Shown in pieces: positions 1 through 45,226 of a stretch of 45,226 nt of DNA. The notes under the pieces are model-generated. The model had not been told where the DNA came from, ran no database searches, and saw nothing but the letters and a program-made list of their open reading frames with translations. Source of the DNA: a virus; IMG/VR virus record IMGVR_UViG_3300046665_000206, positions 1 to 45,226 of that record. One strand, written 5' to 3'. The position numbers were made by a program, and so were the translations under genes. Position 1 is the first letter of the stretch, and the number at the start of each line of letters is the position of its first letter.

Positions 1-72
1 CGATGGGCCGAAAGGTCCCTAACCTACCAAGGGATCGCGGATGCCATGGCTGACCAATGGAGCCACCTGTGA
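1..72 (+). CDS. 3' end of the methyltransferase-like gene (duplicate of 45100-45171)
   Basis: These 24 codons, ending at TGA 70-72, are the C-terminus of the methyltransferase-like gene whose full copy is at 44515-45171. The fragment exists only because the contig was opened inside the overlap. It shows that the plus-strand arm continues across the contig joint. Confidence 0.85.
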   Translation, partial: RWAERSLTYQGIADAMADQWSHL

Positions 73-127
73 ACGGTGTCCGTTTCACCCTAATGACCAA
101 TTGACACAGGCTTCAGGATCGAGCAGA
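1..127. repeat. Terminal overlap of a circular assembly (copy 1)
   Basis: Bases 1-127 are identical to 45100-45226. A 127-base overlap is what a de Bruijn assembler running at k=127 leaves on a circular or terminally redundant molecule, so it is probably an assembly product, not a biological terminal repeat. The unique genome is about 45,099 bp. The true packaged ends cannot be read from this contig. Confidence 0.9.
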
Positions 128-153
128 ACCACGCGGTAAATGGGAATGCAACC

Positions 154-258
154 ATGCTGTTCTGGTCTCTGCTCGTCCTTGGCGCTGTTGTGGTGTTAGG
201 GCTCCTTGGTTTCTTAGGCTACCTTACCGTCTACTCAGCGACACTTTTAGACGAGTGA
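154..258 (+). CDS. Small single-span membrane protein (34 aa), last gene of the plus arm
   Basis: An ATG at 154 opens a 34-codon frame ending at TGA 256-258. The product is a run of Leu, Val and Gly with Phe, Trp and Tyr from about residue 2 to 28, followed by an acidic end (LLDE), which reads as one transmembrane helix. The possible ribosome site upstream (GGGA at 142-145) is weak. It sits between the methyltransferase-like gene and the convergent terminator, on the early strand. No family is recognised. A holin-like or superinfection role is possible but only a guess. Confidence 0.5.
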   Translation: MLFWSLLVLGAVVVLGLLGFLGYLTVYSATLLDE

Positions 259-263
259 AAAAT

Positions 264-303
264 AACCCCCAGACGTCTCCGTAGAGATATCTGGGGGTTT
301 TTT
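264..303. terminator. Rho-independent terminator between convergent arms, probably bidirectional
   Basis: AACCCCCAGA (264-273) pairs over 10 bp with TCTGGGGGTT (290-299). The loop contains a further short pairing (GTCTC with GAGAT). On the plus strand it runs into six T residues (298-303). On the minus strand the stem is followed by TTATTTTT. It lies between the last plus gene and the last minus gene, so it can end both arms. Confidence 0.88.
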
Positions 304-305
304 GT

Positions 306-485
306 TTAGTCGTCGGGAGCAGCTTTGCGCTCCTTCTTAATCTTGAAGTACATCTGCATCACCAACCAGGCACAGCCCAGGATCGGGAGTGCCCACGTGG
401 CGGCTTCGCTACCGTGTGTGAGAGCTGAGAGCCACCAAGGGCTCACTACGGCTGCACCAGCGCCAGCAGTCGTTACGGTTTCCAT
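306..485 (-). CDS. Putative holin (59 aa)
   Basis: The small protein has a hydrophobic helix of about 18 residues (ATWALPILGCAWLVMQMYF) and a basic, charged C-terminus (KIKKERKAAPDD), the pattern of small phage holins of the T7 gp17.5 / Phage_holin_3 type. It would form the inner-membrane lesion that lets endolysin out. I chose the ATG at 485 because it overlaps the upstream TAA as TAATG and has AAGAAG upstream. A start at 503 (65 aa) in the same frame is also possible and could give a dual-start pair. Much longer readings only run over the upstream gene. It is the last gene of the late operon, directly before the terminator. Confidence 0.72.
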   Translation of the reverse strand: METVTTAGAGAAVVSPWWLSALTHGSEAATWALPILGCAWLVMQMYFKIKKERKAAPDD

Positions 486-913: not shown

Positions 914-1137
914 CAGTCGTGTTCCTTGGGGGCCATGTGAAGCATGGGTTTCATGAAGGCGAGCGCGATGAGGACCATGGTGGCCTTCTGCTCACCGATC
1001 CACGGGCCTAGTACGGCCTTCAGGTCGATCACGCCGAGCGCGTCGAGGATATCAGGGAGCGCGGCTAGGAACACCACAGCGAGCGCGCCGAGGCGCACCC
1101 GTAGGCGGCTTATGTAGCCCTTGATAGTTTCGAACAT
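913..1137 (-). CDS. Small two-helix membrane protein of the lysis cassette (74 aa)
   Basis: There are two hydrophobic segments, about residues 17-34 (GALAVVFLAALPDILDAL) and 53-66 (KATMVLIALAFMKPM), with a basic N-terminus (YISRLRVRLG) and a charged tail (PKEHD). It lies directly downstream of the endolysin, with a TAATG overlap, and ends in an ATGA overlap with the next membrane protein. Size and position suit a holin or antiholin, but no family is recognised with certainty. Confidence 0.62.
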   Translation of the reverse strand: MFETIKGYISRLRVRLGALAVVFLAALPDILDALGVIDLKAVLGPWIGEQKATMVLIALAFMKPMLHMAPKEHD

Positions 1138-1862
1138 TATACGGCCTTGACAGCTTGCGTGTACGCAGAGCTGCGCAGGTAGTTCACGTAAGCCTTGTGA
1201 ATGAAGTAAGCGGCCACGCCCAAGGCGATCACGCCAATGAAGATCAGGCCAGCTTTGGTCGAGGTATCGACACCGGAGATGTCGGGGATCGTCGGAGCGA
1301 CACCGGCACCAACGGCACCCGTGGCGTTCTTATGGCCCGACGTCTTGGCTTCCTTGGCTTCCGCGAGGAGCACAGGAGCCACAGGTTTCCCAGCGGCCTT
1401 GGTGGCCATGGTTACACCAGTGACTTCCACGTCGATAACGCGGCGGGTCCAGCCTTTGCCGAAGGTCACGAAAGTCTTCAGGGACTTCAGGAAGCTCAGA
1501 CGTCGCTTGCAGAACTCCTTGACGTAGGCAGCGGGCTCCAGCTTCGGCATCGCAGCGCGATACTTAAGGGACCGCGAGACACCTGAGTTCACACCGAAGT
1601 CGAACTCTACGAGGTCAACGCCAGCTGGGCGGTTGTCACAGTCCATCTTCGCCCAATACTTGGAGCGGTAGATGTCGATAGCAACGGACTTCGGCATAGC
1701 CTTAACGTCCGAGGGGGAAGCATCGTACTTCCAGTACATGCGTGCGTCAGCAATGGTGATGCCCCAATTGGTGGCACCGCCCGGGTCACGAGGGTCGTTG
1801 GTGTAACCACCCTCGTAAGTCAGGGTCTTGCTGATGGACGCTTCACGATTTGAAGCGGTCAA
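1137..1862 (-). CDS. Endolysin, GH108-type N-acetylmuramidase with C-terminal membrane helix
   Basis: Residues about 15-36 carry the glycoside hydrolase 108 signature: EGGYTNDPRDPGGATNWGIT, with Glu17 as expected catalytic acid. A PG_binding_3-like domain follows (DFGVNSG, about 90-100). After a Gly/Ala-rich linker the protein ends in a membrane-spanning segment (GLIFIGVIALGVAAYFI, about 205-222), an unusual feature suggesting membrane tethering before lysis. The start is TTG 1862: an AAGGA ribosome site overlaps the upstream gene's stop and lies at good spacing, and no ATG is available before the domain. It cuts peptidoglycan at the end of infection. Confidence 0.9.
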   Translation of the reverse strand: MTASNREASISKTLTYEGGYTNDPRDPGGATNWGITIADARMYWKYDASPSDVKAMPKSVAIDIYRSKYWAKMDCDNRPAGVDLVEFDFGVNSGVSRSLKYRAAMPKLEPAAYVKEFCKRRLSFLKSLKTFVTFGKGWTRRVIDVEVTGVTMATKAAGKPVAPVLLAEAKEAKTSGHKNATGAVGAGVAPTIPDISGVDTSTKAGLIFIGVIALGVAAYFIHKAYVNYLRSSAYTQAVKAV

Positions 1863-2279: not shown

Positions 2280-4364
2280 TCAGATTTCCGCGTCAATGAT
2301 GATACGGGCAGCTGCTGTGTTGTTCGCTTGTAGAGAACCGCCGCCTCCTGCAGTGAAACCTGTACCTGACAGCTGAATTTGCAGCGACGACTGAGAGCCC
2401 GCAGCGGTCGCAATCGTTGTCCCTACTACAATTCCAGCCGCTGTATTTCCTATGAAAGTATTAGCCGCTGAGTATGCTACTGTGGGAACTTTTATCTTCT
2501 TAACCGCGTAGTTGTAGATACCGTAGAAGACCGTGCTAGACAGGGCGAAGCCGCCACAGAACAACTCGTAAGCGACTGTTCCTCCAGAGCCAAGAGCTTC
2601 ACAGTAAGGAAGGCACAAGGCCAACTCTTGTGAGCCTAAGCGTTGATCATACGGAGAACCGTAGCTACCATCTTCAAGCTGAACGCTTGAAACGCTGAAG
2701 CTGTCACCAGCAGAGTAAGATTTGTCATCGTTCCAAATGAGAACCGCTAGATTGTTGAAGGAGGTCCCCAACGTAGCGGTTACAGAATAGCCTAATGAAG
2801 ACGTTGTAGCTCCTAGGTTCACTGGCGTGTTCTTGAAGGTCCAGTTTGTGGCAAGTGTTGGCGTAACACCATCTGCGCCCCAGGCCGACACAGGATCGCC
2901 AGTGGTTGCATCTTCGGTACCTGTCCACTCAAGAATCCCAATCTTCATGTTAGCAAGTCGAACATTCGAGACTTGTAGAAGCAGAGATAAGGTCACGGAT
3001 TTGCCGCGAAGATGTTTGCAGTTCTTCCCTCGAACGACTTGGAAGACCCCTCCCTTGTCAGTCGTGCCAGAGAACGAAAGCGTTCCAGCCAGAACATTAC
3101 CCCCAGCTTGGTTGAAATTACCAGAAGAGACTACGGCTGCTGCCTCACCAACATATCGCCAGCGATCCGCCCAATAGGTGTTGTCAGAAGTGCTTGTTCC
3201 AACACCGTTGTTACGTTGGTCAATCTCAAATTGACCGTTGATGATGACGTTCCTACCAGGAACAAACGCGTTCGCCTTTACTAATCCTGAGGTCGTCCAA
3301 TCCCACCTGATCGTACTGGTGTCTGTTACAACACGCTCCGCGCTCAGTCCGGCGTCTGATGTTTTGACTAGATAATCGCTAGTTGTTGGCGCACCACCTG
3401 ATGCGCTATACGCGTTCCACGATGAACCATTGAATATACGTAATTCACCAGCTGTGGAGTTCCAATAGAAGTCACCCGCGTTGCACGCGTTGCCATCTGG
3501 GTCCAACGACGGATTCGACGCAAGTGATCCGTAGTAGACGTCTCGAAAGGACTTTAGGCTGTTTAGCGCATTGGTCTCACTAGTGGCGGCATTAGTCGCA
3601 CTGGTGGAAGCGTTGGTAGCCGAAGTGGCTGCTGCATTCTTCGAAGCAAGAGCGTTGGTCTCGCTGGTGGCAGCATTTGTTGCTGACGTGGACGCGGCAT
3701 TCTTGGATGCGAGCGCATTGGTTTCGCTTGTTGAAGCGTTGGTAGCCGAAGTGGCTGCTGCATTCTTCGAAGCAAGAGCGTTGGTCTCGCTGGTGGCAGC
3801 ATTTGTTGCCGAAGTAGCAGCTGCGTTCTTCGAAGCAAGCGCGTTGGTCTCGCTGGTGGCTGCGTTGGTCGCACTGGTAGCCGCAGCGTTCTTGGACGCG
3901 AGAGCGTTGGTTTCGCTCGTTGCAGCATTGGTGGCCGACGTGGCCGCTTGGGACGCCTTGGTCGTCGCGATGCCCGCCTGCGTGGTAGCTGTAGAAGCTG
4001 ATCCTGCTGACGTCGTGGCGCTGTTGGCAGAGTTGGTTGCCGACGTGGCTGCATTGGTCTCACTGGTCGCCGCGTGGTTCTCGCTAACGAGCGCAGCAGC
4101 AGCAGAAGCAGCCGAATCATCTGCACTGTCCTGCGCGTGTTCAGCGTTGACGGCACCAGCAGCCGCAGCAGCCTCCGTGGCCACCTTGAGCGCCGTCATA
4201 TCCGCTAGGACACTATCGCTGTCGTGAAGAGCCTCGTATGCCGTGCCGTTCGGATAGAATGAGCTTGGAGCCTTGGAGTTGCCCTGTGGAGGCGTGGTGT
4301 CATTATCGACAACCACAGCCTCAGCGTAGGCGTTCCCGTCAGCGTAGAATGAACTCTTGGTCAC
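2280..4364 (-). CDS. Tail fibre protein with internal repeats (694 aa)
   Basis: The N-terminus is followed by an Ala/Ser/Thr/Asn-rich region (about 65-270) made of near-identical 21-residue units built on TSETNALASKNAA, likely a trimeric coiled-coil or beta-stalk. Next comes a DPDGNACNAGDFYWN/LRIFNGSSWNAY stretch, then a C-terminal domain opening with NVIINGQFEIDQRNNG, a carbohydrate-binding-like start found in receptor-binding proteins. I place the start at GTG 4364. It overlaps the adaptor stop as GTGA and has GAGGG six bases upstream, whereas the longer TTG at 4370 abuts the ribosome site. The fibre should decide host-receptor binding. Confidence 0.85.
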   Translation of the reverse strand: MTKSSFYADGNAYAEAVVVDNDTTPPQGNSKAPSSFYPNGTAYEALHDSDSVLADMTALKVATEAAAAAGAVNAEHAQDSADDSAASAAAALVSENHAATSETNAATSATNSANSATTSAGSASTATTQAGIATTKASQAATSATNAATSETNALASKNAAATSATNAATSETNALASKNAAATSATNAATSETNALASKNAAATSATNASTSETNALASKNAASTSATNAATSETNALASKNAAATSATNASTSATNAATSETNALNSLKSFRDVYYGSLASNPSLDPDGNACNAGDFYWNSTAGELRIFNGSSWNAYSASGGAPTTSDYLVKTSDAGLSAERVVTDTSTIRWDWTTSGLVKANAFVPGRNVIINGQFEIDQRNNGVGTSTSDNTYWADRWRYVGEAAAVVSSGNFNQAGGNVLAGTLSFSGTTDKGGVFQVVRGKNCKHLRGKSVTLSLLLQVSNVRLANMKIGILEWTGTEDATTGDPVSAWGADGVTPTLATNWTFKNTPVNLGATTSSLGYSVTATLGTSFNNLAVLIWNDDKSYSAGDSFSVSSVQLEDGSYGSPYDQRLGSQELALCLPYCEALGSGGTVAYELFCGGFALSSTVFYGIYNYAVKKIKVPTVAYSAANTFIGNTAAGIVVGTTIATAAGSQSSLQIQLSGTGFTAGGGGSLQANNTAAARIIIDAEI
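3606..3920 (-). repeat. Five 63-bp in-frame repeats in the tail fibre gene
   Basis: Five consecutive units of 63 bp encode 21-residue repeats (TSETNALASKNAA plus an eight-residue A/S/T/N stretch). Copies differ by a few synonymous changes and Ala/Ser swaps. Partial units extend to both sides. Unit number could change by recombination, altering shaft length. Confidence 0.88.
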
Positions 4365-5002
4365 CAGCAACCCTCATCACCGATAGGCAACGCAGGGCGC
4401 ACAGCGGCGTCCGCAGTAAGCTCATCGCCATCGGCTTGTTCTTGGAGTAGGTCTTTGATTTGGGTGTAACGCTTCTCGTAGCCGCCTGCCCGCTCGTCCA
4501 CCAGATAGTCACAGGCGAACGAAAGGGCTCCGTAGAGAACGGCGTCCCAAGCAACCTTGAGGCACGTGTTCTCCGAAGTGTCATCGGTGAGAGGCGCAAA
4601 CTCTGCGTAGTAGTGGATTAGAACCTTGTCGCCTTCACGCGGGCGCGGGCCAAGGACCCAGCTGCCTCCCTGTCGGGAATACACACGAGGAACCGAGGCG
4701 TACTCGGATTGCTTGGCGACGCGCGTGAGGTCCACACGTTGCAGCTGGTAATCCATAACGCCGTCCTGATCCTCATCGACCATGATGGCGATAAGCTCAA
4801 GGAGGTCCGAAGGGATCGACAGCTTCGTGTAGTCCGAAGGTATCGTGAAGAGTATCTGCTTCTCCATGAAGGGCACGCGGAGTTCGCGCTGGAGACGCAT
4901 GATTGCTTGGTTGATGAACGTGGCAACCAAGGCGTCATTTCGAGAGACTACGGTATTGTTGAGCAAGCCTTTGAATTGAGTTTTGAGGTCGCCTAAGTTC
5001 AT
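4361..5002 (-). CDS. Head-tail adaptor protein (213 aa), SU10-adaptor-like
   Basis: The sequence begins MNLGDLKTQFKGLLNN and continues with a helical region (FINQAIMRLQRELRVPF), then KLSIPSDLLELIAIMVDEDG-type strands and a C-terminal helical part. This layout matches the adaptor family of SU10/phiEco32-like podoviruses, the functional counterpart of T7 gp11, which joins the portal ring to the tail nozzle. Its place between capsid and fibre genes agrees. It starts with ATG at 5002, and its stop overlaps the fibre start as GTGA. Confidence 0.75.
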   Translation of the reverse strand: MNLGDLKTQFKGLLNNTVVSRNDALVATFINQAIMRLQRELRVPFMEKQILFTIPSDYTKLSIPSDLLELIAIMVDEDQDGVMDYQLQRVDLTRVAKQSEYASVPRVYSRQGGSWVLGPRPREGDKVLIHYYAEFAPLTDDTSENTCLKVAWDAVLYGALSFACDYLVDERAGGYEKRYTQIKDLLQEQADGDELTADAAVRPALPIGDEGCW

Positions 5003-5392: not shown

Positions 5393-6298
5393 TTAGAAGC
5401 CGGTAGCCGCTTCGATGACTGCCGAGGAAGCGAAGAAGTTCTTGTGCTTCAGTGAGAACTCACCGAGCAGCATTGCCTTCTCGCTATCGCCGGTCTTGGC
5501 CAGAGCCTTGCGCTCCCAAGGACGCAGGGTCACGTTGGTCCACTGGTCGGGCTCGAAGATCAGCGTGTTCTTCGCCTTCTGGAAGCGGTTGATTTCAACC
5601 TTCTGCTCACCGAACGGCGAGACGTAGAGGTTGACCACGTTGACAATCGCCTTGTCATTGCCACCCGTGGGCAGCGTGCGGTAACGGCCAGCAGCCGAAG
5701 CGAAGCCAGCGAGGACCACGGAGTTCGAAGGGGTCACGTGGATACGCGTGGGCTCAGCACCAGCCACGTAGGCGTTCTGCAGAGCAGTCACGAGCAGAGC
5801 TTCGGACAGCGGGGTCGCCGCGCCACCAGTGTAGACCACAGTGGTGCTATCAAGCTGCTGCTGGAAACCAGCGAGCGTCGAAGCGGTCGTCGAGTTACCG
5901 GCCGATTTCGTCTGAGCGGTGCCAACGAGAGCGTTCTCACGGTCGCGCTTGATAGCCGCCGAAGACTTAGCCATCTGGTACGCCATTTCGCGCTTGCGGC
6001 CATAAGTGGACACAACATTGGCGCGGTCGGTAACCTGCACGGCTTCAGTGAAAATCTGCGTGTAGTTGTTACGCATCACGGTCGGGACAGCGGTGATGAA
6101 CGAAGCATCAGCGCCTTCAACCGCAGCGTTGGTGCCAACGGCGCGCAGGCTGTCTTCCTGCCACTGGAACAGAGGCTGGGTCACCTTCTCATTGCCGATG
6201 GCGCTCTGGAAGGGCGTCTTGCGCGGCGAGAGGTTGGTGATGACGTCGGAAATGTCTTCTTTGATACCCACCATCTGGTAGGTCTGGTAATTAGCCAT
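5393..6298 (-). CDS. Major capsid protein, SU10_MHP / DUF5309 family (301 aa)
   Basis: Residues 14-36 (KEDISDVITNLSPRKTPFQSAIG) and about 77-90 (MRNNYTQIFTEAVQ), with a downstream GRKREMAYQMAKSSAAIKRD helix, are the pattern of the SU10-type major head protein family, an HK97-fold capsid. The length of about 300 residues is usual. The gene follows the scaffold gene by 32 bp. It is not recognisable as a T7 gp10 relative, although the replication genes are T7-like. Confidence 0.88.
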   Translation of the reverse strand: MANYQTYQMVGIKEDISDVITNLSPRKTPFQSAIGNEKVTQPLFQWQEDSLRAVGTNAAVEGADASFITAVPTVMRNNYTQIFTEAVQVTDRANVVSTYGRKREMAYQMAKSSAAIKRDRENALVGTAQTKSAGNSTTASTLAGFQQQLDSTTVVYTGGAATPLSEALLVTALQNAYVAGAEPTRIHVTPSNSVVLAGFASAAGRYRTLPTGGNDKAIVNVVNLYVSPFGEQKVEINRFQKAKNTLIFEPDQWTNVTLRPWERKALAKTGDSEKAMLLGEFSLKHKNFFASSAVIEAATGF

Positions 6299-6330: not shown

Positions 6331-7395
6331 TTAGTCGTCGCCCATAAGGGCAAGGAAGGCGTTCTCTGCATCCTGTCGGGTGCCGCTCTGCTTGGCCTTT
6401 GCCACAGCGGATTTGGCGGTCACTTCCTTGGAGGATGCACGAGCTGCTGGAGCTGATGCGGAGTTCTTCACAATCTTCGTAGGCGTCTTGTTGACCTTCT
6501 TAGTCTGGACCTTTGAAGCACCACGCTTGAACTGCATGGCCATATGGAGCACCTTGAATGCACCGGGATCAGTGAGGTTGTTCACCATCTCAGCGTCGAG
6601 GCCCATCTCAGAGCCGAACGCGCGGATGTCGTTGTAGACAGCCTCGTTCCAACCTTTGATGTGCGTCGGGCTCTCAGGGTTAGTCAGCGCAGTGACACAA
6701 GCCTTTGCGGACTTGGCCTGAGCCGTCTTCTGCTCGTCGGTGACGCGCGCCATGAAGCCGTCGAGTTCGTTCTTGATGAACGTCTCGCTTTCGATTGCTT
6801 CCTTGGCCTCATCCTGCAGAGCCTGCAGCTGTTCGGGCGGGAAGTTCGGGTCCTTCATGAGCTGCATCCACGGGATGGCTCGATACTGGTCAGCCTTTGC
6901 GGTGACCTTCTTCAGCATGACGTCGTAAGCTGCGATGTTCTTCGCACGCTCAGCGTCAATTACCTTGCGCTCTTCAGCGACTTCTTGGGATTTACGTGTA
7001 AGAGATGCCTCTTGGCCCCAAAGACGTTTCAGGTCCTTGACAGGAACTTCGTGCTCCGTGTCACCTTCCTTGATCTTGACGTAGGTCTCATCGCTGTCGT
7101 CAGCGAACTTCTTGGCCTTCGTCTTGTCGTCTTCGTCGCCCTCGCCTTCGTCGCCTTCGTCGTCACCCTCTGGATTTTCATCGGAGGTCTCTTCGTTGTC
7201 AGCTTCGTCGTCGTTAGCTTCGTCTTCATTCGAGGGTTCATCGCCCTCAGGCTTCTTACCTTCTTCGGATGGCTCTACAGCGTCCTCATCCTCTTCAGGA
7301 TCAGTAAGGAAAGCATTGATGCCAGCTTCGTCGCCGTCGATAGCATCGGGGTATTCGTTAGTTGCAAGTGCAGCGTCCGAGAGGATGGCTGGCAT
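6331..7395 (-). CDS. Capsid scaffolding protein (354 aa)
   Basis: An extremely acidic N-terminal third (about residues 33-95, mostly Asp and Glu with Gly, Asn and Ser) is followed by a long charged helical region (SLTRKSQEVAEERKVIDAERA, about 140-200) and a Lys/Ala-rich basic C-terminus. That polarity is typical of podoviral scaffolding proteins. It lies directly upstream of the capsid gene. It would guide procapsid assembly and then leave or be degraded. Confidence 0.82.
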   Translation of the reverse strand: MPAILSDAALATNEYPDAIDGDEAGINAFLTDPEEDEDAVEPSEEGKKPEGDEPSNEDEANDDEADNEETSDENPEGDDEGDEGEGDEDDKTKAKKFADDSDETYVKIKEGDTEHEVPVKDLKRLWGQEASLTRKSQEVAEERKVIDAERAKNIAAYDVMLKKVTAKADQYRAIPWMQLMKDPNFPPEQLQALQDEAKEAIESETFIKNELDGFMARVTDEQKTAQAKSAKACVTALTNPESPTHIKGWNEAVYNDIRAFGSEMGLDAEMVNNLTDPGAFKVLHMAMQFKRGASKVQTKKVNKTPTKIVKNSASAPAARASSKEVTAKSAVAKAKQSGTRQDAENAFLALMGDD

Positions 7396-7397
7396 GG

Positions 7398-7694: not shown

Positions 7695-8218
7695 GCGATG
7701 TCCTTGTTGTGCAGGTAGGCCATCATCTTGTTGATGAGGTCAGGCCCACGCACGGCCTGTGCTTGCGCAGCGGCCATAGGGTCGATGAATTGTCCCGTAC
7801 CTGGGTCAGTCATCATCGCTGAGTTGCGCTGAAAGAATGACATAGGGTCAGCCTGTGGTGCTTCGGCAGGACGGGCCTGCGGCATTGGCACTGAGGCTTG
7901 CGGCACTGGTGATCCATTGGGGGCACCGGGAGGCCGTGGCTGGGGCATTGGTGTTGCCGGGAGAGCGCCGAAGGACTGCATAATGTGGTCCATTGGCGTC
8001 ATGTCAGCACTGTAGTTTGTCGGTGTCGCAGAGTTGTCCGTCGAGATAGGCGGGGAAACTGCGGGAGCGCCCCCCGGCTCCACAGGCTGAGCTGTGGGCT
8101 GGGGAACGTCGATTTGTGAGGTCTTCCAGAACGGAGTGGCGAATGAACCCCCGCGCGAAAGGACGCGCGAGAGCACAGGGGCCAGCCGTGAAAGCTGTTG
8201 CATTACGACAGGGTTCAT
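7691..8218 (-). CDS. Proline-rich protein next to the portal (175 aa)
   Basis: The N-terminus (MNPVVMQQLSRLAPVLSRVLSRG) is a predicted amphipathic helix. Residues about 38-130 are low-complexity Pro/Ala/Gln/Met sequence with repeated PMPQ(A/P)R units, and the C-terminus (GPDLINKMMAYLHNKDIA) is helical again. It overlaps the portal stop as TAATG. Such linker proteins next to portals are often minor virion or assembly components. No domain is recognised. Confidence 0.6.
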   Translation of the reverse strand: MNPVVMQQLSRLAPVLSRVLSRGGSFATPFWKTSQIDVPQPTAQPVEPGGAPAVSPPISTDNSATPTNYSADMTPMDHIMQSFGALPATPMPQPRPPGAPNGSPVPQASVPMPQARPAEAPQADPMSFFQRNSAMMTDPGTGQFIDPMAAAQAQAVRGPDLINKMMAYLHNKDIA

Positions 8219-17665: not shown

Positions 17666-17844
17666 CTAAGTCCGTTGGTATTCATGCGAGTTTCGAGAGA
17701 ACTCACAACTGCAATCAGCTGTGCTATTGAGTTCTGCAGTTTGGTCAACTCGCCGGTAATGAAGCGTTGTTCGCCGCCGTCAATCGACGGATAGCTCTTC
17801 GGTGTGTATGCGAGTAGCTTCTTGGATTCAGTGTGAACCGTCAT
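17662..17844 (-). CDS. Small coiled-coil protein after the nozzle gene (60 aa)
   Basis: Sixty residues with a C-terminal amphipathic helix (TKLQNSIAQLIAVVSSLETRMN) that looks like a coiled coil. The start overlaps the nozzle stop as ATGA and the stop overlaps the next TTG as TTGA, so it is translationally coupled on both sides. No family is recognised. A minor tail part or chaperone is possible. Confidence 0.62.
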   Translation of the reverse strand: MTVHTESKKLLAYTPKSYPSIDGGEQRFITGELTKLQNSIAQLIAVVSSLETRMNTNGLS

Positions 17845-20695: not shown

Positions 20696-20740
20696 GTATT
20701 CGTAGTGTTTTGAAATAAGGCTAAATTGAGAGACATCAGA

Positions 20741-26415: not shown

Positions 26416-26424
26416 GAACGAACA

Positions 26425-26448: not shown

Positions 26449-26473
26449 GGACCATTTCCTGACTAATCGGAAA
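26449..26473 (+). promoter_or_regulatory. TGACCAAT-type motif upstream of the RNA polymerase gene
   Basis: ACCATTTCCTGACTAATCGG is related to the motif before the integrase. A second partial copy, GGTCAAATCGGACACAG (26477-26493), matches the CGGACA-TAG end of the integrase copy. Confidence 0.35.
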
Positions 26474-26571
26474 CTAGGTCAAATCGGACACAGTTTCTGA
26501 AATATCAAACACTTACCGGCCAAACACCCTGACCTTCACCAGAGAGCCGCTTCGGAAAGGACCGTCCCCAG

Positions 26572-33543: not shown

Positions 33544-34001
33544 TGTATAAGCCCGCACTTAGTATCGAGCCCAACTTTCGTTCTGGGCTTGAGAAAAAGG
33601 TAGCGGAGCAACTAGAGCAGGACGGTGTTGAATACGGCCACGAAAGTCAGTGGATACGTTACACCGTCCCAGCTCGCGAAGCGAAGTACCTTCCAGACTT
33701 CTCGTTCGCAGGTTCACCAATCATCATTGAGGCCAAGGGCCGCTTTGGTGGCGGCAATCCGCGCTTCAAGCAACCTGCAAGCGACGGCGCAAAGGAACGG
33801 CAAAAGCTGATCCTGCTTAAGGAGCAACATCCTGAGCTGGACATTCGCATTGTCTTCCAGCGCGCCTCTACGCCGATCTATCCCGGCAGCAAAACCACTT
33901 ACGGCAAATGGGCTGACGACCACGGATTTCTGTGGTCCGACAAAGGCACCGTTCCTGACAAGTGGAAACAAGACATCAAACAATCCTTGAAGAGAAAGTG
34001 A
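33543..34001 (+). CDS. Endonuclease I, T7 gp3-like Holliday junction resolvase (152 aa)
   Basis: Strong match to the T7 enzyme: FRSGLEKKVAEQLE (Glu17), YLPDF (Asp52), IIEAKG (Glu63, Lys65) and EQHPELDIRIVFQRA, then YPGSKTTYGKWADDHG. All four catalytic residues of the PD-(D/E)xK fold are present. It resolves branched DNA and degrades host DNA. The length is like T7's 149. The start overlaps the SSB stop as TAATG. Confidence 0.95.
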   Translation: MYKPALSIEPNFRSGLEKKVAEQLEQDGVEYGHESQWIRYTVPAREAKYLPDFSFAGSPIIIEAKGRFGGGNPRFKQPASDGAKERQKLILLKEQHPELDIRIVFQRASTPIYPGSKTTYGKWADDHGFLWSDKGTVPDKWKQDIKQSLKRK

Positions 34002-34266: not shown

Positions 34267-34464
34267 GTGTCTCTCCTAGCCCTCACGGGCGCGATAACGG
34301 CGGCAGCGGTTCTCTTCGGAAAACTGCTGCTGCTGTTGGTCGGCAGCGTGTGCGTTCTTAGCGCATTCGTTGTCGGGCTCGTAGCCAACGACATCATGAA
34401 GACAATACGCATCAAGAAGGAGCGCCGTGGCGTTCATACGACACGATCCATGCCCGTGCGGTAA
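34267..34464 (+). CDS. Small membrane protein (65 aa)
   Basis: The start is GTG 34267, directly after the previous TAA. The product has a long hydrophobic segment that may form two helices (LLALTGAITAAAVLFGKLLL and VGSVCVLSAFVVGLVANDI) followed by a basic tail. It overlaps the primase-helicase start by 38 bp. Function unknown. Confidence 0.5.
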   Translation: MSLLALTGAITAAAVLFGKLLLLLVGSVCVLSAFVVGLVANDIMKTIRIKKERRGVHTTRSMPVR

Positions 34465-36067: not shown

Positions 36068-38184
36068 GACTACTAGGCGACACCGAAAGCAACGGGTTCG
36101 TTGCGAATGCCACGAAGATACACTGCTCCTGCTTCGTGAACATTGATGACCGGGAGCAAGTCTGGGACTTCAAGCCGGGCGAGACTGACGCGATGATTGA
36201 GCTGCTGGACAAGGCAGACATGATCATCGGCCACAACTGGCAGCGACATGACGGCCCCCTGATCAAAAAGCTCACCCGATGGACCCCAAGACCCGGGGTT
36301 CTCGTGCGTGACACGATGATCATCTCACGCTTGAAGTTTCCGAACCTGAAGGCAACCGACAAGGCACTCGTGCAGTCGGGCAAGATGCCCCCAGGTAACA
36401 AGTACCAAGGCCGTCACACCATCGGTGCGTGGGGCTATCGCCTTGGTAATCCCAAGGGTGACTACGCGGCCATTCGAGAGGCCGAAGCTCTCGCAAAGGG
36501 CATCACTGATCCTGAAGCCATCGCACGCTACGTGTGGGGTGAATGGAACGAAGAGATGCACGACTACATGCTGCAGGACCGCTCGACGGGCCTAAGCCTC
36601 TGGGACGTGCTGAACCCTGACGCTTACTCGCAACCTGCTATCGAACTTGAGCATCGCGTAGCCCGCGTATGTGATGCCATGGAGAAGGCGGGCGTCCCGT
36701 TCAACCTTAAGGCCGCTGCTGAGCTGCAAGCCGAACTGGTAGGACGCAAGGACGTACTCGAAACGAAGCTCAAGGAAACCTACGGCTACTGGTACGCACC
36801 GATCAGCCCTAACCCGTCGAAGGCAATCTTCATTCCGAAGAAGGCTGACGAGAAGGCAGGTTATTGGGGTGACGAATGGACTACCGAAGTGCCTGTAACG
36901 AAGAACGGCGAGCCTGTTTACGACAGGAACGGAGTTCTCAAGACCAAGCTGAAGAAGCACTTCAAGGGATACCCCTGCACCAAGATTAAGCCCGTGATGT
37001 TCAACCCGGGCTCCTCAGACCATCTCGCCAAGGTCCTTCAGGATCAGGGCTGGAAGCCTACGAAGTTCACTGATGGCGGTAAGCCAGCAATGGACGAAGA
37101 GGTCATCGAGAGCATCACCAACCAGTTTCCGCAGATGGATGGGTTGGCTGAGCTGCTGATGATCAACAAGCGACTGTCGCAACTCGTGGGCGGCAAGAGC
37201 AGCAAGTATCCCCTCATTGACTGCGTGAAGGAAGACGGACGCATTCACGGCGTGATCAACCCTATGGGAACGATTACGTCCCGTGGCGCACATATGTTCC
37301 CTAACTTGGGACAAGTGCCGTCCGCTAAGAAGCCATACGGCATCGCCTTCCGCTCTCTGTTCTACGCACCGCAAGGATGGAAATTCCTGGGTGCTGACCA
37401 GCAGGGATTGGAGCTTCGTGGTCTCGCTCATTACCTGCATCCGCTCGACGGCGGCAAGTATATGGACGTCGTTATCGCTGGTGATCCCCATTGGCTTCAC
37501 GCTGAAGTAATGGACCTCGCCACAGGGCCTCGTGACAAGCACAACAAGTGCCACACGATCATCCGTGAGGATGGCACCAAGCGGTTCATCTACGCCTACA
37601 TCTACGGCGCTGGTGACGAAATGGTTGGCACCATCATCTACGAAGCCTTGCTGAACGCACGGCGCAACGGCGGTGACGAAGGTATCGCTCTCTACGTCAA
37701 GTTCTTCGGTGAAGAGGTTGTCGGTGAGAGCAAGCTCAAGAAGGTTGGCAAGGCAATCCGCTCTGCGTTCGCAAAGCGCATCGACGGTTACGGCAAGCTG
37801 CAGCAGAAGCTGAGCGAACAGGTAGCCAAGAAGCGCCGTGTGGTTGGTCTGGACGGTCGCAAAATCCCGATCCGGTCTGATCACTCTGCATTGAACTTCA
37901 TGATCCAATCTGCGGGTGCAATTGTCTGCAAGCGTTGGCTCGCTGACGCCTTCGAAGAGTGCGAGCGTCGGTTTGGTTACAACTACGATGACCCGTGGTC
38001 AGGAGTGTTTGTCTTCTGTCTCTGGGTGCACGACGAAGTTCAGCTCTGTGTCCGTGAAGGATACGAGAAGGAAGTCGGTGACATCATCGTGGAATGCGCA
38101 CGGCGCGCTGGGGACCCTTATGGTTTCCGTGTGCCTCTGGATAGCGAATGGTCCACAGGCGACAATTGGGCTGACACTCACTGA
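36064..38184 (+). CDS. DNA polymerase, family A, T7 gp5-like (706 aa) with apparent CTG start
   Basis: Polymerase motifs: A FLGADQQGLELR with Asp445, B KRFIYAYIYGAG (about 506-517), C WVHDEVQL with Asp657. The N-terminal 3'-5' exonuclease begins LLGDTESNG (Asp and Glu), which lies upstream of any ATG, GTG or TTG; the GTG at 36136 would remove it. CTG 36064 starts MRLLGDTESNG, overlaps the primase stop as CTGA, and has AAGGAG ten bases upstream. It replicates the genome and probably uses a host processivity factor, as T7 uses thioredoxin. Confidence 0.93.
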   Translation: MRLLGDTESNGFVANATKIHCSCFVNIDDREQVWDFKPGETDAMIELLDKADMIIGHNWQRHDGPLIKKLTRWTPRPGVLVRDTMIISRLKFPNLKATDKALVQSGKMPPGNKYQGRHTIGAWGYRLGNPKGDYAAIREAEALAKGITDPEAIARYVWGEWNEEMHDYMLQDRSTGLSLWDVLNPDAYSQPAIELEHRVARVCDAMEKAGVPFNLKAAAELQAELVGRKDVLETKLKETYGYWYAPISPNPSKAIFIPKKADEKAGYWGDEWTTEVPVTKNGEPVYDRNGVLKTKLKKHFKGYPCTKIKPVMFNPGSSDHLAKVLQDQGWKPTKFTDGGKPAMDEEVIESITNQFPQMDGLAELLMINKRLSQLVGGKSSKYPLIDCVKEDGRIHGVINPMGTITSRGAHMFPNLGQVPSAKKPYGIAFRSLFYAPQGWKFLGADQQGLELRGLAHYLHPLDGGKYMDVVIAGDPHWLHAEVMDLATGPRDKHNKCHTIIREDGTKRFIYAYIYGAGDEMVGTIIYEALLNARRNGGDEGIALYVKFFGEEVVGESKLKKVGKAIRSAFAKRIDGYGKLQQKLSEQVAKKRRVVGLDGRKIPIRSDHSALNFMIQSAGAIVCKRWLADAFEECERRFGYNYDDPWSGVFVFCLWVHDEVQLCVREGYEKEVGDIIVECARRAGDPYGFRVPLDSEWSTGDNWADTH

Positions 38185-38955: not shown

Positions 38956-39119
38956 TGGAAGTAATGGAATACACCGGGGGACCATTCAACATGAAGGTCT
39001 CCCGGGAACGTAAGACCGTCACACTGTCTGTTGTGCGCGGAAGCGATGTGCTTACCGAGATTAAGTTTCCGGTTGGCGCAATCAACAAAGTCATTGAAGC
39101 ACTCAAGGACATTAGGTGA
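38955..39119 (+). CDS. Small hypothetical protein before the exonuclease (54 aa)
   Basis: The frame begins at GTG 38955, overlapping the previous stop as TAGTG, or at ATG 38964. The product (RKTVTLSVVRGSDVLTEIKF and INKVIEALKDI) is a small beta-beta-alpha-like protein. It overlaps the exonuclease start as GTGA. Confidence 0.52.
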   Translation: MEVMEYTGGPFNMKVSRERKTVTLSVVRGSDVLTEIKFPVGAINKVIEALKDIR

Positions 39120-39931
39120 AGAAACTACTACTCATCGACGGCGATGAGTTCATTTTCCGTGCGACTGCCGCAGTAGAACACGAGAGCCGCTGGGACGACC
39201 AGAACCACACGATCCACGCCAACGAGAACAAGGCGTGGGACACTCTCACCGGAATGATCAACCGCGTGTTCGAACGCTTTGAGACCAAGGAGCACATCCT
39301 GTGCTTCTCTCAGGCTCCGAACTTCCGGTTTACCGTCGATCCAACATACAAGAACAACCGCGCCGCCTCTCGCAAGCCTATCTGCTACGCGCTGATGCGT
39401 GAGTGGGTTGACGAGAAGTACAAGACCAAAGCGTTCCCCGGCCTAGAAGCCGATGACGTCATGGGCATCCTCGCCACACAGCCCGGCAAGTCACAGCGCA
39501 TCATCGTGTCCCAAGACAAGGACATGAAGACGATCCCGACGACCGTATGGGACGGTAAGGACCTTCGGACCATCACGGAAGCCGAAGCTGACCACAACCA
39601 TCTCTACCAGACCCTCATTGGCGATACGTCCGATGGGTACGCTGGGTGCCCCGGGGTTGGCCCTGTGGCCGCTGAGGAGTTCCTGGATAACCCGTTCGTC
39701 TGGGAGCCCTACGAGCACACGTTCAAGTCTGGACCGCGCAAGGGGCTCACCGAGCAACGCTGGAAGCCTGAACCTACCGATGACGTCTGGAAGGGCGTGG
39801 TGTCTCACTACGTCAAGGCCGGGCTCACCGAAGAGAACGCAATCACACAGGCGCGTCTCGCGCGCATCCTACGTTGGTCCGATTGGGACGGCGTGAAGAA
39901 ACAACCGATACTTTGGAGCCCAACTACTTGA
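39116..39931 (+). CDS. 5'-3' exonuclease, T7 gp6 / FEN-like (271 aa)
   Basis: This is a flap-endonuclease-type nuclease: LLLIDGDEFIFRA (Asp8, Asp10), YKNNR, LEADDVMG, IVSQDKDMKTIP and IGDTSDGYAGCPGVGPVAAEE. These are the metal-binding and helix-hairpin-helix parts of the family. It would remove RNA primers and degrade host DNA. The start is GTG 39116 with AAGGA six bases upstream and a GTGA overlap. The stop overlaps the HAD gene as TTGA. Confidence 0.93.
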   Translation: MKKLLLIDGDEFIFRATAAVEHESRWDDQNHTIHANENKAWDTLTGMINRVFERFETKEHILCFSQAPNFRFTVDPTYKNNRAASRKPICYALMREWVDEKYKTKAFPGLEADDVMGILATQPGKSQRIIVSQDKDMKTIPTTVWDGKDLRTITEAEADHNHLYQTLIGDTSDGYAGCPGVGPVAAEEFLDNPFVWEPYEHTFKSGPRKGLTEQRWKPEPTDDVWKGVVSHYVKAGLTEENAITQARLARILRWSDWDGVKKQPILWSPTT

Positions 39932-42941: not shown

Positions 42942-43219
42942 CGAACCACATCGACGAGCTTTCGGCCTCGCTGCAGGACCGCAAGCGGGATCAGGTTGCC
43001 AACCACATCCGCACGATCCCTGAGCAGACCTTGGACGCCTTGTTGCGTATCGAGGAACTGCTGATCGCGCGGAACACACCTTGGGAGCCGCCGAAGCCTG
43101 AATACGAATGGCAGACTGATGCACTCCCTGACGCATCTGTGACGCCGAAGGCAACCCCGTTGCTCGACAAGCTCAGCGAGAAGAGGCCTGAGCAGCGCAA
43201 GAAGCCGAAGCAGCTCTAA
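42926..43219 (+). CDS. Hypothetical protein (97 aa)
   Basis: The start is GTG 42926, inside the previous microprotein, with AAGGA nine bases upstream. The product is helical and charged (SEELTNHIDELSASLQDRKR) with a Pro-rich middle and a basic end (KRPEQRKKPKQL). No family is recognised. The stop overlaps the next gene as TAATG. Confidence 0.58.
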   Translation: MSEELTNHIDELSASLQDRKRDQVANHIRTIPEQTLDALLRIEELLIARNTPWEPPKPEYEWQTDALPDASVTPKATPLLDKLSEKRPEQRKKPKQL

Positions 43220-43563
43220 TGGATTGGGATGAAAAGGTCCGTGGTCCCCGCATGTCGGAGAACACAGGCCGCGTGATCTGGAAGTACCAGATGCCCGTGC
43301 TTGAACAGTTCACCATGAAGCTCCCCAAGGGAGCCCAAATCATCCGCGTGGATGATCAAGGTGGAATGTTCTGGCTCTGGGCTCTGGTGGACACCAACGC
43401 TGAACTGGAGACACGCCGCTTCCGCTCGATCAAATGCGGAGCCAAGGCTCCAGACGGTGTTGCGTTGAAGTACATCGGCTTCTGCAAAATCTTCATTCAG
43501 CAGGAGCTTGGGCTCTACATTTTTGAAGAAATGGATGCTGATGAAGACAATCCTGTGTGGTGA
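43219..43563 (+). CDS. Conserved phage protein, DUF7352-like (114 aa)
   Basis: RVIWKYQMPVLEQFTMKLPK, GAQIIRVDDQGGMFWLWALV and YIGFCKIFIQQELGLYIFEE match the pattern of a small conserved family (IWKY-x-x-P ... PKGA-x-I-x-V ... WALVD). Function unknown. The start is ATG 43219 (TAATG overlap). Confidence 0.62.
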   Translation: MDWDEKVRGPRMSENTGRVIWKYQMPVLEQFTMKLPKGAQIIRVDDQGGMFWLWALVDTNAELETRRFRSIKCGAKAPDGVALKYIGFCKIFIQQELGLYIFEEMDADEDNPVW

Positions 43564-44188
43564 CGCACCTAAGGACCTTGGGGTAGTCGATCTGAACCCC
43601 AAGGAAATGATGGCTTGGCTTTACTGTCCCATCAAGCTTGCAGCCTCACGGCGCATTGTGCTGCCGTCGAACCTGAAGCAGTTCTCTCCTATCGTTGAGA
43701 AGGTGCGGCAGGATATCTCTGAGAAGAAGTGGGTTGCCAGCTACGTATACCTGACGGCCAAAACGCTCTTCGTGACCCCTGAGGCTCCCGGCAATCGCCC
43801 GGGCTGGCACGCAGACGGCTACATGAGCGACGACCTGAACTACGTATGGGCTGACCGTAACCCAACAATCTTCTGGGTCCCGCCTAAGCCCGTAGAGTTT
43901 CCAGCGGACCACAAGGTCTCGATGCCTCTGATGGACGAGTGGGCCACGCAGGCTCACCAGTATCAGGTCACGTATCCTGTGAAGACTTTGCTCCGCTTGG
44001 ATGAACACGTGCTTCACAGAGTTGGTGCGTGCGACACGCCGGGCATGAGGACCTTCGTGAAGGTCTCTGTGTCGGACAAGAAGTATCTGCTGTCGGGCAA
44101 TTCAGTGAACTACAACCTCGCTCCCGGCTGGACCTACACCGAGCGTGGGGCTGAACGCAACGATCCGTTGGCACCCTTAGCGGCGTGA
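43541..44188 (+). CDS. Possible 2OG-Fe(II) dioxygenase-like protein (215 aa)
   Basis: The start at ATG 43541 has GGA five bases upstream; earlier in-frame ATGs (43508, 43535) lie further inside the previous gene. GWHADGY has His90 and Asp92, VLHRVGA has His159 and RTFVKVS has Arg170. The H-x-D...H...R pattern and beta-rich sequence fit the cofactor-binding residues of this dioxygenase fold. The substrate is unknown; a nucleic-acid base is possible because a C5-methyltransferase-like gene is close. The assignment rests on short motifs. Confidence 0.55.
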   Translation: MKTILCGDAPKDLGVVDLNPKEMMAWLYCPIKLAASRRIVLPSNLKQFSPIVEKVRQDISEKKWVASYVYLTAKTLFVTPEAPGNRPGWHADGYMSDDLNYVWADRNPTIFWVPPKPVEFPADHKVSMPLMDEWATQAHQYQVTYPVKTLLRLDEHVLHRVGACDTPGMRTFVKVSVSDKKYLLSGNSVNYNLAPGWTYTERGAERNDPLAPLAA

Positions 44189-44496
44189 GCTGGAAGGAAG
44201 ACCAAGAGTTTGTCCGGCTGTCGTGGAAGCTGATCGAATGGAAAGCAGCGTACTACCAACCAGAGTGCGTGCATTCAAGTCGATTGAGCGATGTGACTGC
44301 TACAGACGATGAATACGATGCAGCCGAGGTACGTTACCTGGAGCTGTGCCGTAAGCTGGATAGAACAAACACCGTGGTCCACAAGCCCTACCCCGGCTTC
44401 GAAGACCTGATCACTGAGCGCGCTATGGTCGAGCTGGATGAGACACGTCCGTCCGTTCAGCTCGCCATGCGTAAGCTGGGCACACCGAAGACCTAA
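44185..44496 (+). CDS. Small protein resembling DNA ligase A domain Ia (103 aa)
   Basis: The segment IEWKAAYYQPECVHSSRLSD followed by TDDEYDAAEVRYLELCRKLD is like the Ia domain of NAD-dependent ligases (Y-Y-x ... S-D-x-E-Y-D). No adenylation core follows, so it is not a full ligase; such stand-alone relatives occur in other phages. The start is GTG 44185 (GTGA overlap). The TAA at 44494-44496 is in the same frame as the following methyltransferase-like gene. Confidence 0.6.
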   Translation: MSWKEDQEFVRLSWKLIEWKAAYYQPECVHSSRLSDVTATDDEYDAAEVRYLELCRKLDRTNTVVHKPYPGFEDLITERAMVELDETRPSVQLAMRKLGTPKT

Positions 44497-44514
44497 CCGA
44501 TACCAAATACCCCT

Positions 44515-45171
44515 CTGCGGGTCCTCGTTGGCTGTGAATACAGCGGACGTGTGAGAGACGCCTTCAGGGCTTTAGGGCACGACGCTTGGTCGTGTGACCT
44601 GTTGGCGGCACCGGGAAATCATTTTCAATGCGATGTTCTCTCCGTCCTCGATAGAGGATGGGACCTAGCGATTTTCCATCCACCCTGCACCTACCTGACC
44701 ATTGCGGCTGAGTGGGCGTATAAAGACCCCGACTTCGAACGCTACCCGGGCGTAGGCTATCACCAGAAGGTCAAGCCCGAGACGCTAACAGGGGCTGACA
44801 GACGCACCGCGCGTGAATGCGCGCTGATGTTTGTGCGTCATCTCATGAACGCGCCAATCCCAAGGATTGCCTTGGAGAATCCCAAGGGCGTCATCGGGTC
44901 CCGCATAGGGCCTTCGTCGCAGATTATCCAACCGTATGACTTCGGAGATGACGCCAGCAAGGCCACGTGCCTGTGGCTCAAAGGGCTCCCGAAGCTCACG
45001 CCTACGCTCTACGTGCCTCCTAGGATCACCAAGGACGGCAAGGAGCGTTGGGCTAACCAGACCGATAGCGGACAGAACCGGCTTGGTCCTTCGGAGGACC
45101 GATGGGCCGAAAGGTCCCTAACCTACCAAGGGATCGCGGATGCCATGGCTGACCAATGGAGCCACCTGTGA
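44515..45171 (+). CDS. C5-cytosine methyltransferase-like protein (218 aa) with apparent CTG start
   Basis: Motifs: VLVGCEYSGRVRDAF (SAM-binding loop), FHPPCTYL (PPC at 56-58, catalytic Cys of motif IV) and ALENP (121-123, motif VI). SLTYQGIADAMADQW ends the protein, as in the related phage family. No target-recognition domain is seen, so activity is uncertain. GTG 44551 would cut off the SAM loop. The upstream frame has only CTG 44515 (giving MRVLVGCEYSG) or ATA 44500 as possible starts. No clear ribosome site precedes either. The gene runs through the contig joint. Confidence 0.75.
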   Translation: MRVLVGCEYSGRVRDAFRALGHDAWSCDLLAAPGNHFQCDVLSVLDRGWDLAIFHPPCTYLTIAAEWAYKDPDFERYPGVGYHQKVKPETLTGADRRTARECALMFVRHLMNAPIPRIALENPKGVIGSRIGPSSQIIQPYDFGDDASKATCLWLKGLPKLTPTLYVPPRITKDGKERWANQTDSGQNRLGPSEDRWAERSLTYQGIADAMADQWSHL

Positions 45172-45226
45172 ACGGTGTCCGTTTCACCCTAATGACCAAT
45201 TGACACAGGCTTCAGGATCGAGCAGA
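45100..45226. repeat. Terminal overlap of a circular assembly (copy 2)
   Basis: Identical to bases 1-127. It contains the last 72 bases of the methyltransferase-like gene and 55 bases of the spacer behind it, including TAATGACCAATTGACACAGG. When the copies are merged the plus arm continues into the 34-aa membrane ORF at 154. Confidence 0.9.

Follow-up and report, generated by a model that had tools for sequence, protein, structure and literature searches.

A Probable Temperate Podovirus of an Undescribed Lineage with a T7-Type Replication Cassette and a LUZ24/SU10-Type Head Arm

The window analysed here, the 45,226 nucleotides of IMG/VR record IMGVR_UViG_3300046665_000206, likely comprises the whole circularised genome of a temperate podovirus of an undescribed lineage, in which two modules of different ancestry would work together in the steps proposed below. 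Judged by profile and family matches, module one is a temperate T7-type cassette in the order MarR-type regulator, integrase (int), attP, single-subunit RNA polymerase (RNAP), SSB, endonuclease I, primase-helicase, DNA polymerase, and exonuclease, and module two is an opposite-facing head arm of the LUZ24/SU10 type.

Genome and Layout

The record represents a circularly closed genome of 45,099 bp with an exact terminal repeat of 127 bp at the contig ends. Since the same 127-bp overlap is present in four relatives (five assemblies in all), the repeat is most likely an assembler overlap and not a physical phage end. The late block occupies the minus strand (about 306-20695), and the plus strand carries the replication arm (about 21763-45171). 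As stated in a preliminary description, the arms diverge from one control region and converge on one terminator:

20696..21762 (roughly 1 kb), unstranded: noncoding control region at which the two arms separate (gene orientations; repeats and sequence)
264..299, unstranded: bidirectional intrinsic terminator on which the arms converge (RNA fold)

The terminator has a predicted fold of -31.3 kcal/mol (z -6.9), with an A-run on the 5' side and a T-run on the 3' side. This layout had been regarded as a departure from classical T7 genomes, which are one-directional. The departure is seen here, with late genes on minus and replication genes on plus and not all genes in one direction as in Autographivirales and Autographiviridae; however, divergence alone is not odd, as LUZ24 and phiM5 are arranged likewise.

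The Head Arm

The following genes were identified on the minus strand:

1137..1862, minus: endolysin, glycosyl hydrolase 108 (PF05838, E 7e-26; phrog_315)
2280..4370, minus: tail fibre containing tandem repeats of 63 nt (phrog_38058, among other tail-fibre families)
4361..5002, minus: SU10-type adaptor (PF24175 SU10_adaptor, E 1.6e-26)
5393..6298, minus: SU10-type major capsid protein (PF17236 SU10_MCP, E 2.8e-76)
6331..7395, minus: head scaffolding protein (phrog_3927, E 1.8e-28; profile matches SU10, LUZ24, and phiM5 scaffolds)
8218..10263, minus: SU10-type portal (PF23899 SU10_portal, E 1.1e-157)
10276..11931, minus: large terminase (TerL), CRP-7 type (phrog_2; 34% identity to CRP-7)
11924..12487, minus: candidate small terminase (adjoins TerL and is kept across the lineage; without family match)
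16342..17334, minus: DNA ejection protein (phrog_4287, E 1.5e-16)
17841..19463, minus: virion structural protein (phrog_3287, E 1.2e-72)
19802..20695, minus: tail fibre or collar protein (phrog_6256, among other tail families)

Capsid and adaptor had been assigned to an SU10/DUF5309 type; the SU10 part holds by the Pfam families SU10_MCP and SU10_adaptor, whereas no DUF5309 match was reported. In a profile table, the lineage profiles for capsid, portal, scaffold, and adaptor matched LUZ24, SU10, and phiM5. The same head profiles gave no match to T7, Pasto, and P-SSP7 as far as each was tested, and for capsid and portal no match was obtained in any of these three phages. By these profiles, the head module is kin to those of LUZ24 and SU10. 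The lineage TerL profile matched neither the TerL of P-SSP7, HTVC019P, and YIMV22061 nor the LUZ24 and SU10 TerL references, and on this comparison TerL is assigned to a third source outside both sets compared. The T7-type capsid, portal, and TerL characteristic of Autographivirales and Autographiviridae were thus not found in this genome.

The T7-Type RNA Polymerase and Replication Genes

The T7-type genes named in the preliminary description were each confirmed by HMM or family matches:

26572..29124, plus: T7-type single-subunit RNAP (PF00940, E 1e-87; phrog_414, E 8e-182)
32977..33543, plus: gp2.5-like SSB (phrog_112)
33543..34001, plus: endonuclease I (PF05367)
34427..36067, plus: T7-type primase-helicase (phrog_239, PF21268)
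36064..38184, plus: T7-type family A DNA polymerase (PF00476)
39116..39931, plus: T7 gp6-type 5'-3' exonuclease (phrog_107, PF02739)

The RNAP retains all four T7 residues D537, K631, Y639, and D812, and its catalytic residues are thus intact; PF00940, these residues, and the RNAP tree identify it as the T7-type single-subunit RNAP characteristic of Autographivirales and Autographiviridae. For the DNA polymerase, the exonuclease motif DTES is located upstream of the first ATG, GTG, or TTG, and the start is probably the CTG at 36064. Lineage profiles of RNAP, SSB, endonuclease I, primase, polymerase, exonuclease, integrase, and MarR-type regulator matched T7-type phages. Among possible promoters for the phage RNAP, repeated 18-22-mers in noncoding DNA exceeded shuffled sequences, yet no T7-like promoter set was obtained from them. 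A GGAAAC-centred motif upstream of minus-strand late genes is a candidate only for an RNAP promoter. The RNAPs of the lineage have diverged promoter-specificity loops and might therefore provide new RNAP-promoter pairs.

Integration and the Proposed RNAP Switch

Between the regulator gene and the RNAP gene, the following elements were assigned:

24461..24919, plus: MarR-type winged-helix regulator, g24461 (phrog_9665)
25196..26299, plus: tyrosine integrase (PF00589)
26326..26368, plus: attP core, corresponding to the tRNA-Ser(UGA) 5' half through the anticodon stem (exact 43-bp match to an intact host tRNA-Ser gene)
26385..26397, plus: proposed operator copy 1, which overlaps the -35 element (position kept in relatives)
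26388..26415, plus: sigma70-like RNAP promoter TTGGAA-N16-TATAGA (TTGnnn-N16-TAnnnn kept in the attP-RNAP interval of the relatives read)
26424..26446, plus: RNAP leader terminator or attenuator (terminator scan; fold -14.4 kcal/mol, z -2.8; hairpin kept in relatives)
26463..26478, plus: proposed operator copy 2, located downstream of copy 1 at a distance of 79 bp (spacing repeated in relatives)

The integrase with attP, likewise noted beforehand, was corroborated by PF00589 and the 43-bp identity, which was found in 1 of 298 genomes of the order searched. The regulator gene lies shortly before int, and attP lies between int and RNAP, at the same place as in relatives, whose integrated copies carry flanking repeats. 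Because of this position of attP, relatives integrated in tRNA-Trp and tRNA-Cys have RNAP at one prophage edge and int at the other.

The MarR profile of the lineage matched the regulators of P-SSP7 and HTVC019P (E 7e-19 and 6e-20). PDB sequence matches of the g24461 product were all MarR, and Foldseek matches of its AlphaFold model were MarR-family regulators; the protein is proposed to be the lysogeny repressor. For temperate T7-like phages, MarR sites were described to flank the RNAP promoter (PMC10134795). Here, the operator-like pairs are individually weak and often not the best match of the genome, and their strength lies in the repeated spacing of 79-81 bp, which recurs across relatives that are not independent of each other. 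The promoter at 26388-26415 was not picked up by a generic consensus scan. A T7-like promoter (TAAT-N8-CTATA) upstream of RNAP was dropped, since the sigma70-like TTG-N16-TATA fits the alignment better, and an operator common to the RNAP leader and the control region (exact 11-mers) was rejected, being near chance in most relatives. We infer a switch in which a MarR repressor, paired putative operators, and a leader terminator gate the RNAP.

In the proposed sequence of steps, host RNA polymerase would transcribe the early genes, including those for the MarR-type regulator and the integrase. The integrase would recombine attP with a tRNA gene in the anticodon region, placing RNAP and int at opposite prophage edges. 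In the lysogen, the MarR-type protein would bind the two operator-like sites flanking the RNAP promoter, 79-81 bp apart, and the terminator just downstream of this promoter would insulate RNAP from read-through. Once repression is lifted, RNAP would be made and would transcribe both the replication arm and the late arm from its own putative promoters, with transcription of each ending at the common bidirectional terminator.

More tentatively, integration itself might rewire the switch, by which lysis control would be physically coupled to the state of the attachment site. As attP lies between int and RNAP, integration would sever the RNAP gene from the early operon. The integrated RNAP gene would then be located beside a fragment of a host tRNA gene, with the leader terminator and the paired operators as its only insulation, and 5'-half integrators such as the tRNA-Trp prophage would also bring the tRNA's own upstream region beside RNAP. 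If true, phages whose heads are unrelated would pass on this arrangement among each other as one unit.

Lineage Members and Host

The phage belongs to a whole unstudied lineage and is not a singleton. Each of the 14 IMG/VR records that have a close capsid and measure 37 kb or more also contains the RNAP, and layout and gene content are conserved in the near-complete relatives read. Such prophages occur in 3 of 272 Bradyrhizobium genomes, and RNAP was found in exactly these three; 27 other genomes of this set contain more distant SU10-type capsids without RNAP. In 398 genomes of the order no close capsid was found, in a search run without a positive control. The host is very likely a soil bacterium of the genus Bradyrhizobium or a close member of the Alphaproteobacteria. 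A poorly sampled lineage had been suspected, in agreement with the many uncultured relatives, the three Bradyrhizobium prophages, and the absence of a DNA-level match among 50,697 phage records with the first 25 kb of the genome as query.

Supposed relatives with 50-58% capsid identity lacking RNAP were rejected, as these records are fragments, of which one ends at int and one carries T7-type polymerase and exonuclease. RNAP matches in Bradyrhizobium retamae and Xylophilus are on contigs other than those with their SU10-type capsid.

Origin of the Two Modules

In trees of capsid, portal, and TerL, a Nitrospirillum prophage is placed beside the lineage. It was excluded from the lineage by AU tests for RNAP (p 0.0074), DNA polymerase (p 0.0045), and primase (p 0.0033), which carry a model risk because the Nitrospirillum and Xylophilus rows are long branches. 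Its RNAP groups with that of a T7-headed Xylophilus prophage (support 100/99). Discordant trees had been named in advance as support for mosaicism, and the discordance between head and replication genes of Nitrospirillum points to module swapping; with the opposing profile matches of the two arms, the mosaic proposal is upheld. Within the lineage, replication and head genes are concordant (Mantel r 0.68-0.88), which indicates that the two arms co-evolve.

This co-evolution would also fit an ancient separate lineage, including CRP-7, that always combined a T7-type RNAP with a LUZ24/SU10-type head, with one half each lost or replaced in Autographivirales and in LUZ24-like phages. CRP-7, which pairs T7-type replication genes with LUZ24-like head genes and a related TerL on the other strand, is in line with such an origin. 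However, the lineage RNAP is nested among the T7, Pasto, HTVC019P, and YIMV22061 enzymes and is not basal, with partly moderate support; the Nitrospirillum-Xylophilus grouping would require module transfer anyway; and CRP-7 differs in replication gene order and has no annotated integrase. An ancient pairing is thus considered unlikely.

That the phage is an ordinary Autographiviridae member whose head has diverged is highly improbable: the RNAP, the full T7-type replication cassette, and the same early gene order would agree with it, but capsid, portal, scaffold, and adaptor find LUZ24/SU10 counterparts and TerL a CRP-7 counterpart, none of T7 type, and the layout is two-directional. For an assembly chimera, in which arms of two phages were misjoined in a soil metagenome, it could be argued that the IMG/VR contig has no isolate and that the 127-bp terminal overlap resembles an assembler overlap. 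This possibility is practically negligible and already refuted, because independent genomes show the same arrangement: a near-identical second record exists (L002/L009), further independent records share the gene order, and the three Bradyrhizobium prophages have the same gene set and att flanks.

The preferred reading, a joining of two modules, suggests that the temperate T7 cassette of regulator, integrase, att, RNAP, and replisome is a portable unit able to run unrelated virion modules. For this lineage, a single joining event and long co-inheritance thereafter are suggested; in Nitrospirillum, the related head would be combined with another T7-type module. As RNAP-based (Autographivirales) and head-based classification disagree here, the lineage provides a clean test for taxonomy. 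Since Bradyrhizobium strains are culturable, the switch of MarR, operator, and terminator that has been proposed for temperate T7-like phages would be directly testable.

Comparison to Known Phages

The novelty is limited in that the divergent layout is known from LUZ24 and phiM5 and the pairing of RNAP and head already exists in CRP-7. The temperate T7-like phages P-SSP7, HTVC019P, Pasto, Limnohabitans YIMV22061, and LUZ100 contain an HTH/MarR-type regulator, integrase, and RNAP in this order, as described for LUZ100 (PMC10134795), followed by SSB, endonuclease I, primase-helicase, polymerase, and exonuclease. P-SSP7 and HTVC019P share the early order MarR-int-att-RNAP-2.5-3-4-5-6 with this lineage, and Pasto does so broadly, with extra genes. 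In Pasto, YIMV22061, P-SSP7, and HTVC019P, a tRNA gene or an att-sized gap is located between int and RNAP, like here. However, temperate T7-like phages have T7-type head genes and one main direction, in contrast to the SU10/LUZ24-type head, the other TerL, and the reversed late arm of this lineage.

LUZ24-like phages (Bruynoghevirus; Sinorhizobium phage phiM5) share the head gene order, with homologous capsid, portal, scaffold, and adaptor; matches to LUZ24-type capsid, portal, and scaffold had E values of 9e-63, 4e-85, and 1.5e-13. LUZ24 and phiM5 also have two converging arms, and LUZ24 an annotated bidirectional terminator. Their TerL is unmatched by the lineage profile, and no RNAP is annotated in LUZ24, whereas this lineage contains one. 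Unlike this lineage, phiM5, for which part of the genome was compared, encodes a primase/polymerase protein in addition to a pol A of its own. SU10 (Kuravirus), a phage with an elongated head, has the Pfam SU10 capsid, portal, and adaptor families in common with this phage, but its genome is 77.3 kb compared to 45.1 kb here, and its TerL is unmatched by the lineage profile.

Roseobacter phage CRP-7 carries a distant T7-type RNAP with replication genes (primase, polymerase, exonuclease) on one strand and a LUZ24-like head on the other, like this lineage, and its TerL belongs to the same family. Its RNAP is about 26% identical over 448 residues, and it differs by its 58 kb genome. CRP-7 is a distant published precedent for a T7-type RNAP with such a head (PMC6918029). 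The combination therefore also arose, or persisted, elsewhere, which counts against the preferred explanation.

The prophage of Nitrospirillum iridis DSM 22198 is similar in capsid (50%), TerL (47%), and portal (39%) and likewise has int and RNAP at opposite edges, whereas its RNAP, polymerase, and primase are derived from another T7-type branch.

Relatives and hosts

The lineage considered here comprises the window phage and its close relatives among IMG/VR records and Bradyrhizobium prophages. A capsid search of IMG/VR gave 139 relatives, of which 80 were kept. All 14 examined records that reach 37 kb and have a capsid identity of 65% or more contain a T7-type RNA polymerase (RNAP), and the ones that were read over their full length agree in gene order and orientation. 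Among annotated phage records no close relative was identified for the genes tested, the matches of RNAP, capsid, portal and TerL all being below 60% identity, and the first 25 kb of the window had no DNA-level match to phage records.

SU10-type capsids were identified in 30 of 272 Bradyrhizobium genomes, at 66-77% identity in three and at 34-47% in 27. Within these 30, the RNAP occurs in exactly the three with the 66-77% capsids, for which the chance under random assignment is 1 in 4,060; one of the three, BR158, matches the IMG/VR record G016. The other 27 carry a second, common SU10-type capsid group (for example, loci L213-L239), all without T7-type RNAP. Bradyrhizobium retamae contains another T7-type RNAP (contig C167, about 33.2-35.6 kb, L207), which is not on the contig of its SU10-type capsid and is sister to the RNAP of Rhizobium phage RHph_TM38 in the RNAP tree (100/100).

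Two ancestries of the genome

Profiles were made from members of the lineage alone and then searched against reference phages. Those of RNAP, primase-helicase, DNA polymerase, exonuclease, SSB, endonuclease I, integrase and the MarR-type regulator matched T7-type phages, and those of capsid, portal, scaffold and adaptor matched LUZ24, SU10 and phiM5. Among the T7-type references tested, the capsid and portal profiles had no match in T7, Pasto and P-SSP7, and the scaffold and adaptor profiles had none in Pasto. The TerL profile, without a match in the T7-type or LUZ24/SU10/phiM5 reference set, matched the roseophage CRP-7 and an uncultured phage from Manatee Spring.

The RNAP tree unites the lineage in a single clade (100/100), nested in a group (93/95) with T7, YIMV22061, Nitrospirillum/Xylophilus, Pasto, P-SSP7 and HTVC019P; the RNAPs of SP6, phiKMV and RHph_TM38 fall outside this group. 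The preliminary description had suggested a mosaic or poorly sampled lineage, with discordant protein trees as a sign of mosaicism, and such discordance was found for a prophage of Nitrospirillum iridis, a more distant relative. On the head side it joins the lineage and its near relatives (portal 100/99, TerL 96/95), and in the capsid tree it lies in the lineage fork (100/99), the inner order of which is without resolution and which also includes the long SU10 branch. Its RNAP, in contrast, pairs with that of a Xylophilus prophage with a T7-type head (100/99), and grouping Nitrospirillum with the lineage was rejected for RNAP (p = 0.0074), DNA polymerase (0.0045) and primase (0.0033). A constraint placing the lineage, Nitrospirillum and Xylophilus RNAPs together was not rejected (p = 0.21). 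The head and replication sides are discordant at one deep point, and long branches call for caution. Within the lineage, RNAP or polymerase distances track head-gene distances (Mantel r 0.68-0.88), and integrase distances do so less (0.41), so the join is an old, stable one and integrases were exchanged more.

In the Xylophilus metagenome-assembled genome G046, one region of contig C64 (L209, L275-L278) contains a T7-type head, TerL, RNAP and replication genes; it is an Autographiviridae-like prophage in a betaproteobacterium.

Genome organization of the window

The contig of 45,226 bases is closed by an exact 127-bp repeat at both ends, giving a unique length of 45,099. Since an overlap of identical length is present in the IMG/VR relatives G001, G002, G005 and G011, it is most likely a mark of circular assembly and not a phage terminus. 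Profile searches of the window confirmed all gene classes listed in the preliminary description. Its two arms do diverge from one control region (noncoding, 20.7-21.8 kb) and converge on one strong bidirectional terminator (264-299), but this layout is by itself no evidence of oddity, since LUZ24 and phiM5 share it, convergent ends included; the lineage acquired it along with the head side or has it in common with that side. Repeats of the GGGACCCAA type are concentrated at 20821-21034, in the divergent control region.

All four catalytic residues of T7 RNAP are conserved in the window enzyme, whose specificity loop has diverged. The exonuclease motif (DTES) of the DNA polymerase lies 5' of the first ATG, GTG or TTG in frame (36031-36141), and CTG at 36064 is probably the start of the gene, which likewise lacks a standard start in G001, G002, G006 and the Bradyrhizobium genome BR082. 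Among the accessory genes of the plus arm (41694-42703), a predicted RNA ligase gene adjoins a gene for a predicted HslV-like peptidase.

Attachment site and lysogeny

The attP (26326-26368) corresponds to the 5' half of tRNA-Ser(UGA), ending at the anticodon stem, and is located 27 bp 3' of int and about 200 bp 5' of the RNAP gene. An exact copy was identified within an intact tRNA-Ser(UGA) gene in one genome from the order to which Bradyrhizobium belongs. At the equivalent site, relatives have either the 5' half of a tRNA-Ser or tRNA-Cys, or a 3' half in reversed orientation. The type of half thus varies within the lineage, G002, G005 and BR158 standing against the window (a 5' half), G006 and G007, so that integration in some cases places the restored tRNA behind upstream sequence of the phage. 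Of the Bradyrhizobium prophages, BR239 sits in tRNA-Trp and is bordered on each side by a 43-bp repeat, and BR158 sits in tRNA-Cys with a 17-bp core; both have int and RNAP at opposite edges.

Directly after the tRNA half (window 26326-26384), ACCTTTCC pairs again with the GGAAAGGT acceptor strand of that half, so that in the phage form the region folds like a tRNA (fold z -2.2).

The RNAP leader and a proposed switch

In relatives, the interval from attP to RNAP contains a sigma70-like promoter (TTG..., 16-base spacer, TA...) directly followed by a terminator hairpin. One copy of a palindrome-like element overlaps the -35 region, and a second lies 3' of the hairpin. Direct scoring in eight relatives puts the two copies 79-81 bp from each other, in direct orientation in G002, G003, G005, G007 and G011 and inverted in G006, G015 and BR239. 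In the window, this spacing is seen in the GGAAACTA pair at 26390 and 26469. It is the recurring 79-81 bp spacing that marks the element as a candidate operator, individual pairs being weak.

A GGAAAC-centred motif was identified in noncoding DNA of the window 5' of late genes and RNAP (10 noncoding occurrences, 4.4 expected) and may represent operators or phage promoters:

19471, 19572, 20919 and 21475, minus strand, GGAAAC-centred motif in noncoding DNA
26390 and 26469, plus strand, GGAAAC-centred motif in noncoding DNA

The regulator gene shortly 5' of int was assigned to the MarR type by profile, PDB sequence search, an AlphaFold model (pLDDT 81) and Foldseek. The paper on LUZ100 relays a proposal for temperate T7-like phages in which RNAP is repressed by a MarR protein acting at promoter-flanking sites (PMC10134795). 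By analogy, the MarR-type protein of the lineage would bind on either side of the RNAP promoter and repress RNAP.

Comparison with known phages

There are precedents for temperate T7-like phages, for LUZ24-type heads and for phage mosaicism. P-SSP7 and HTVC019P share with the lineage the order MarR-int-RNAP-SSB-endonuclease I-primase-polymerase-exonuclease, and Pasto has the same order from MarR to exonuclease, but with extra genes. In CRP-7, a distant T7-type RNAP is joined to a LUZ24-like head, with a TerL related to that of the lineage (PMC6918029); however, CRP-7 has no annotated integrase and another gene order. A study on LUZ24-type structural modules among prophages of Alphaproteobacteria leaves Bradyrhizobium unmentioned in its main text (PMC10386132), and in a study of spontaneous Bradyrhizobium phages, podophages were seen by microscopy and a phage RNAP goes unmentioned (PMC10127595). 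Judged against the non-paywalled literature, the temperate lineage, its hosts, the arrangement of its att site, the discordance between modules and the architecture of the RNAP leader are new.
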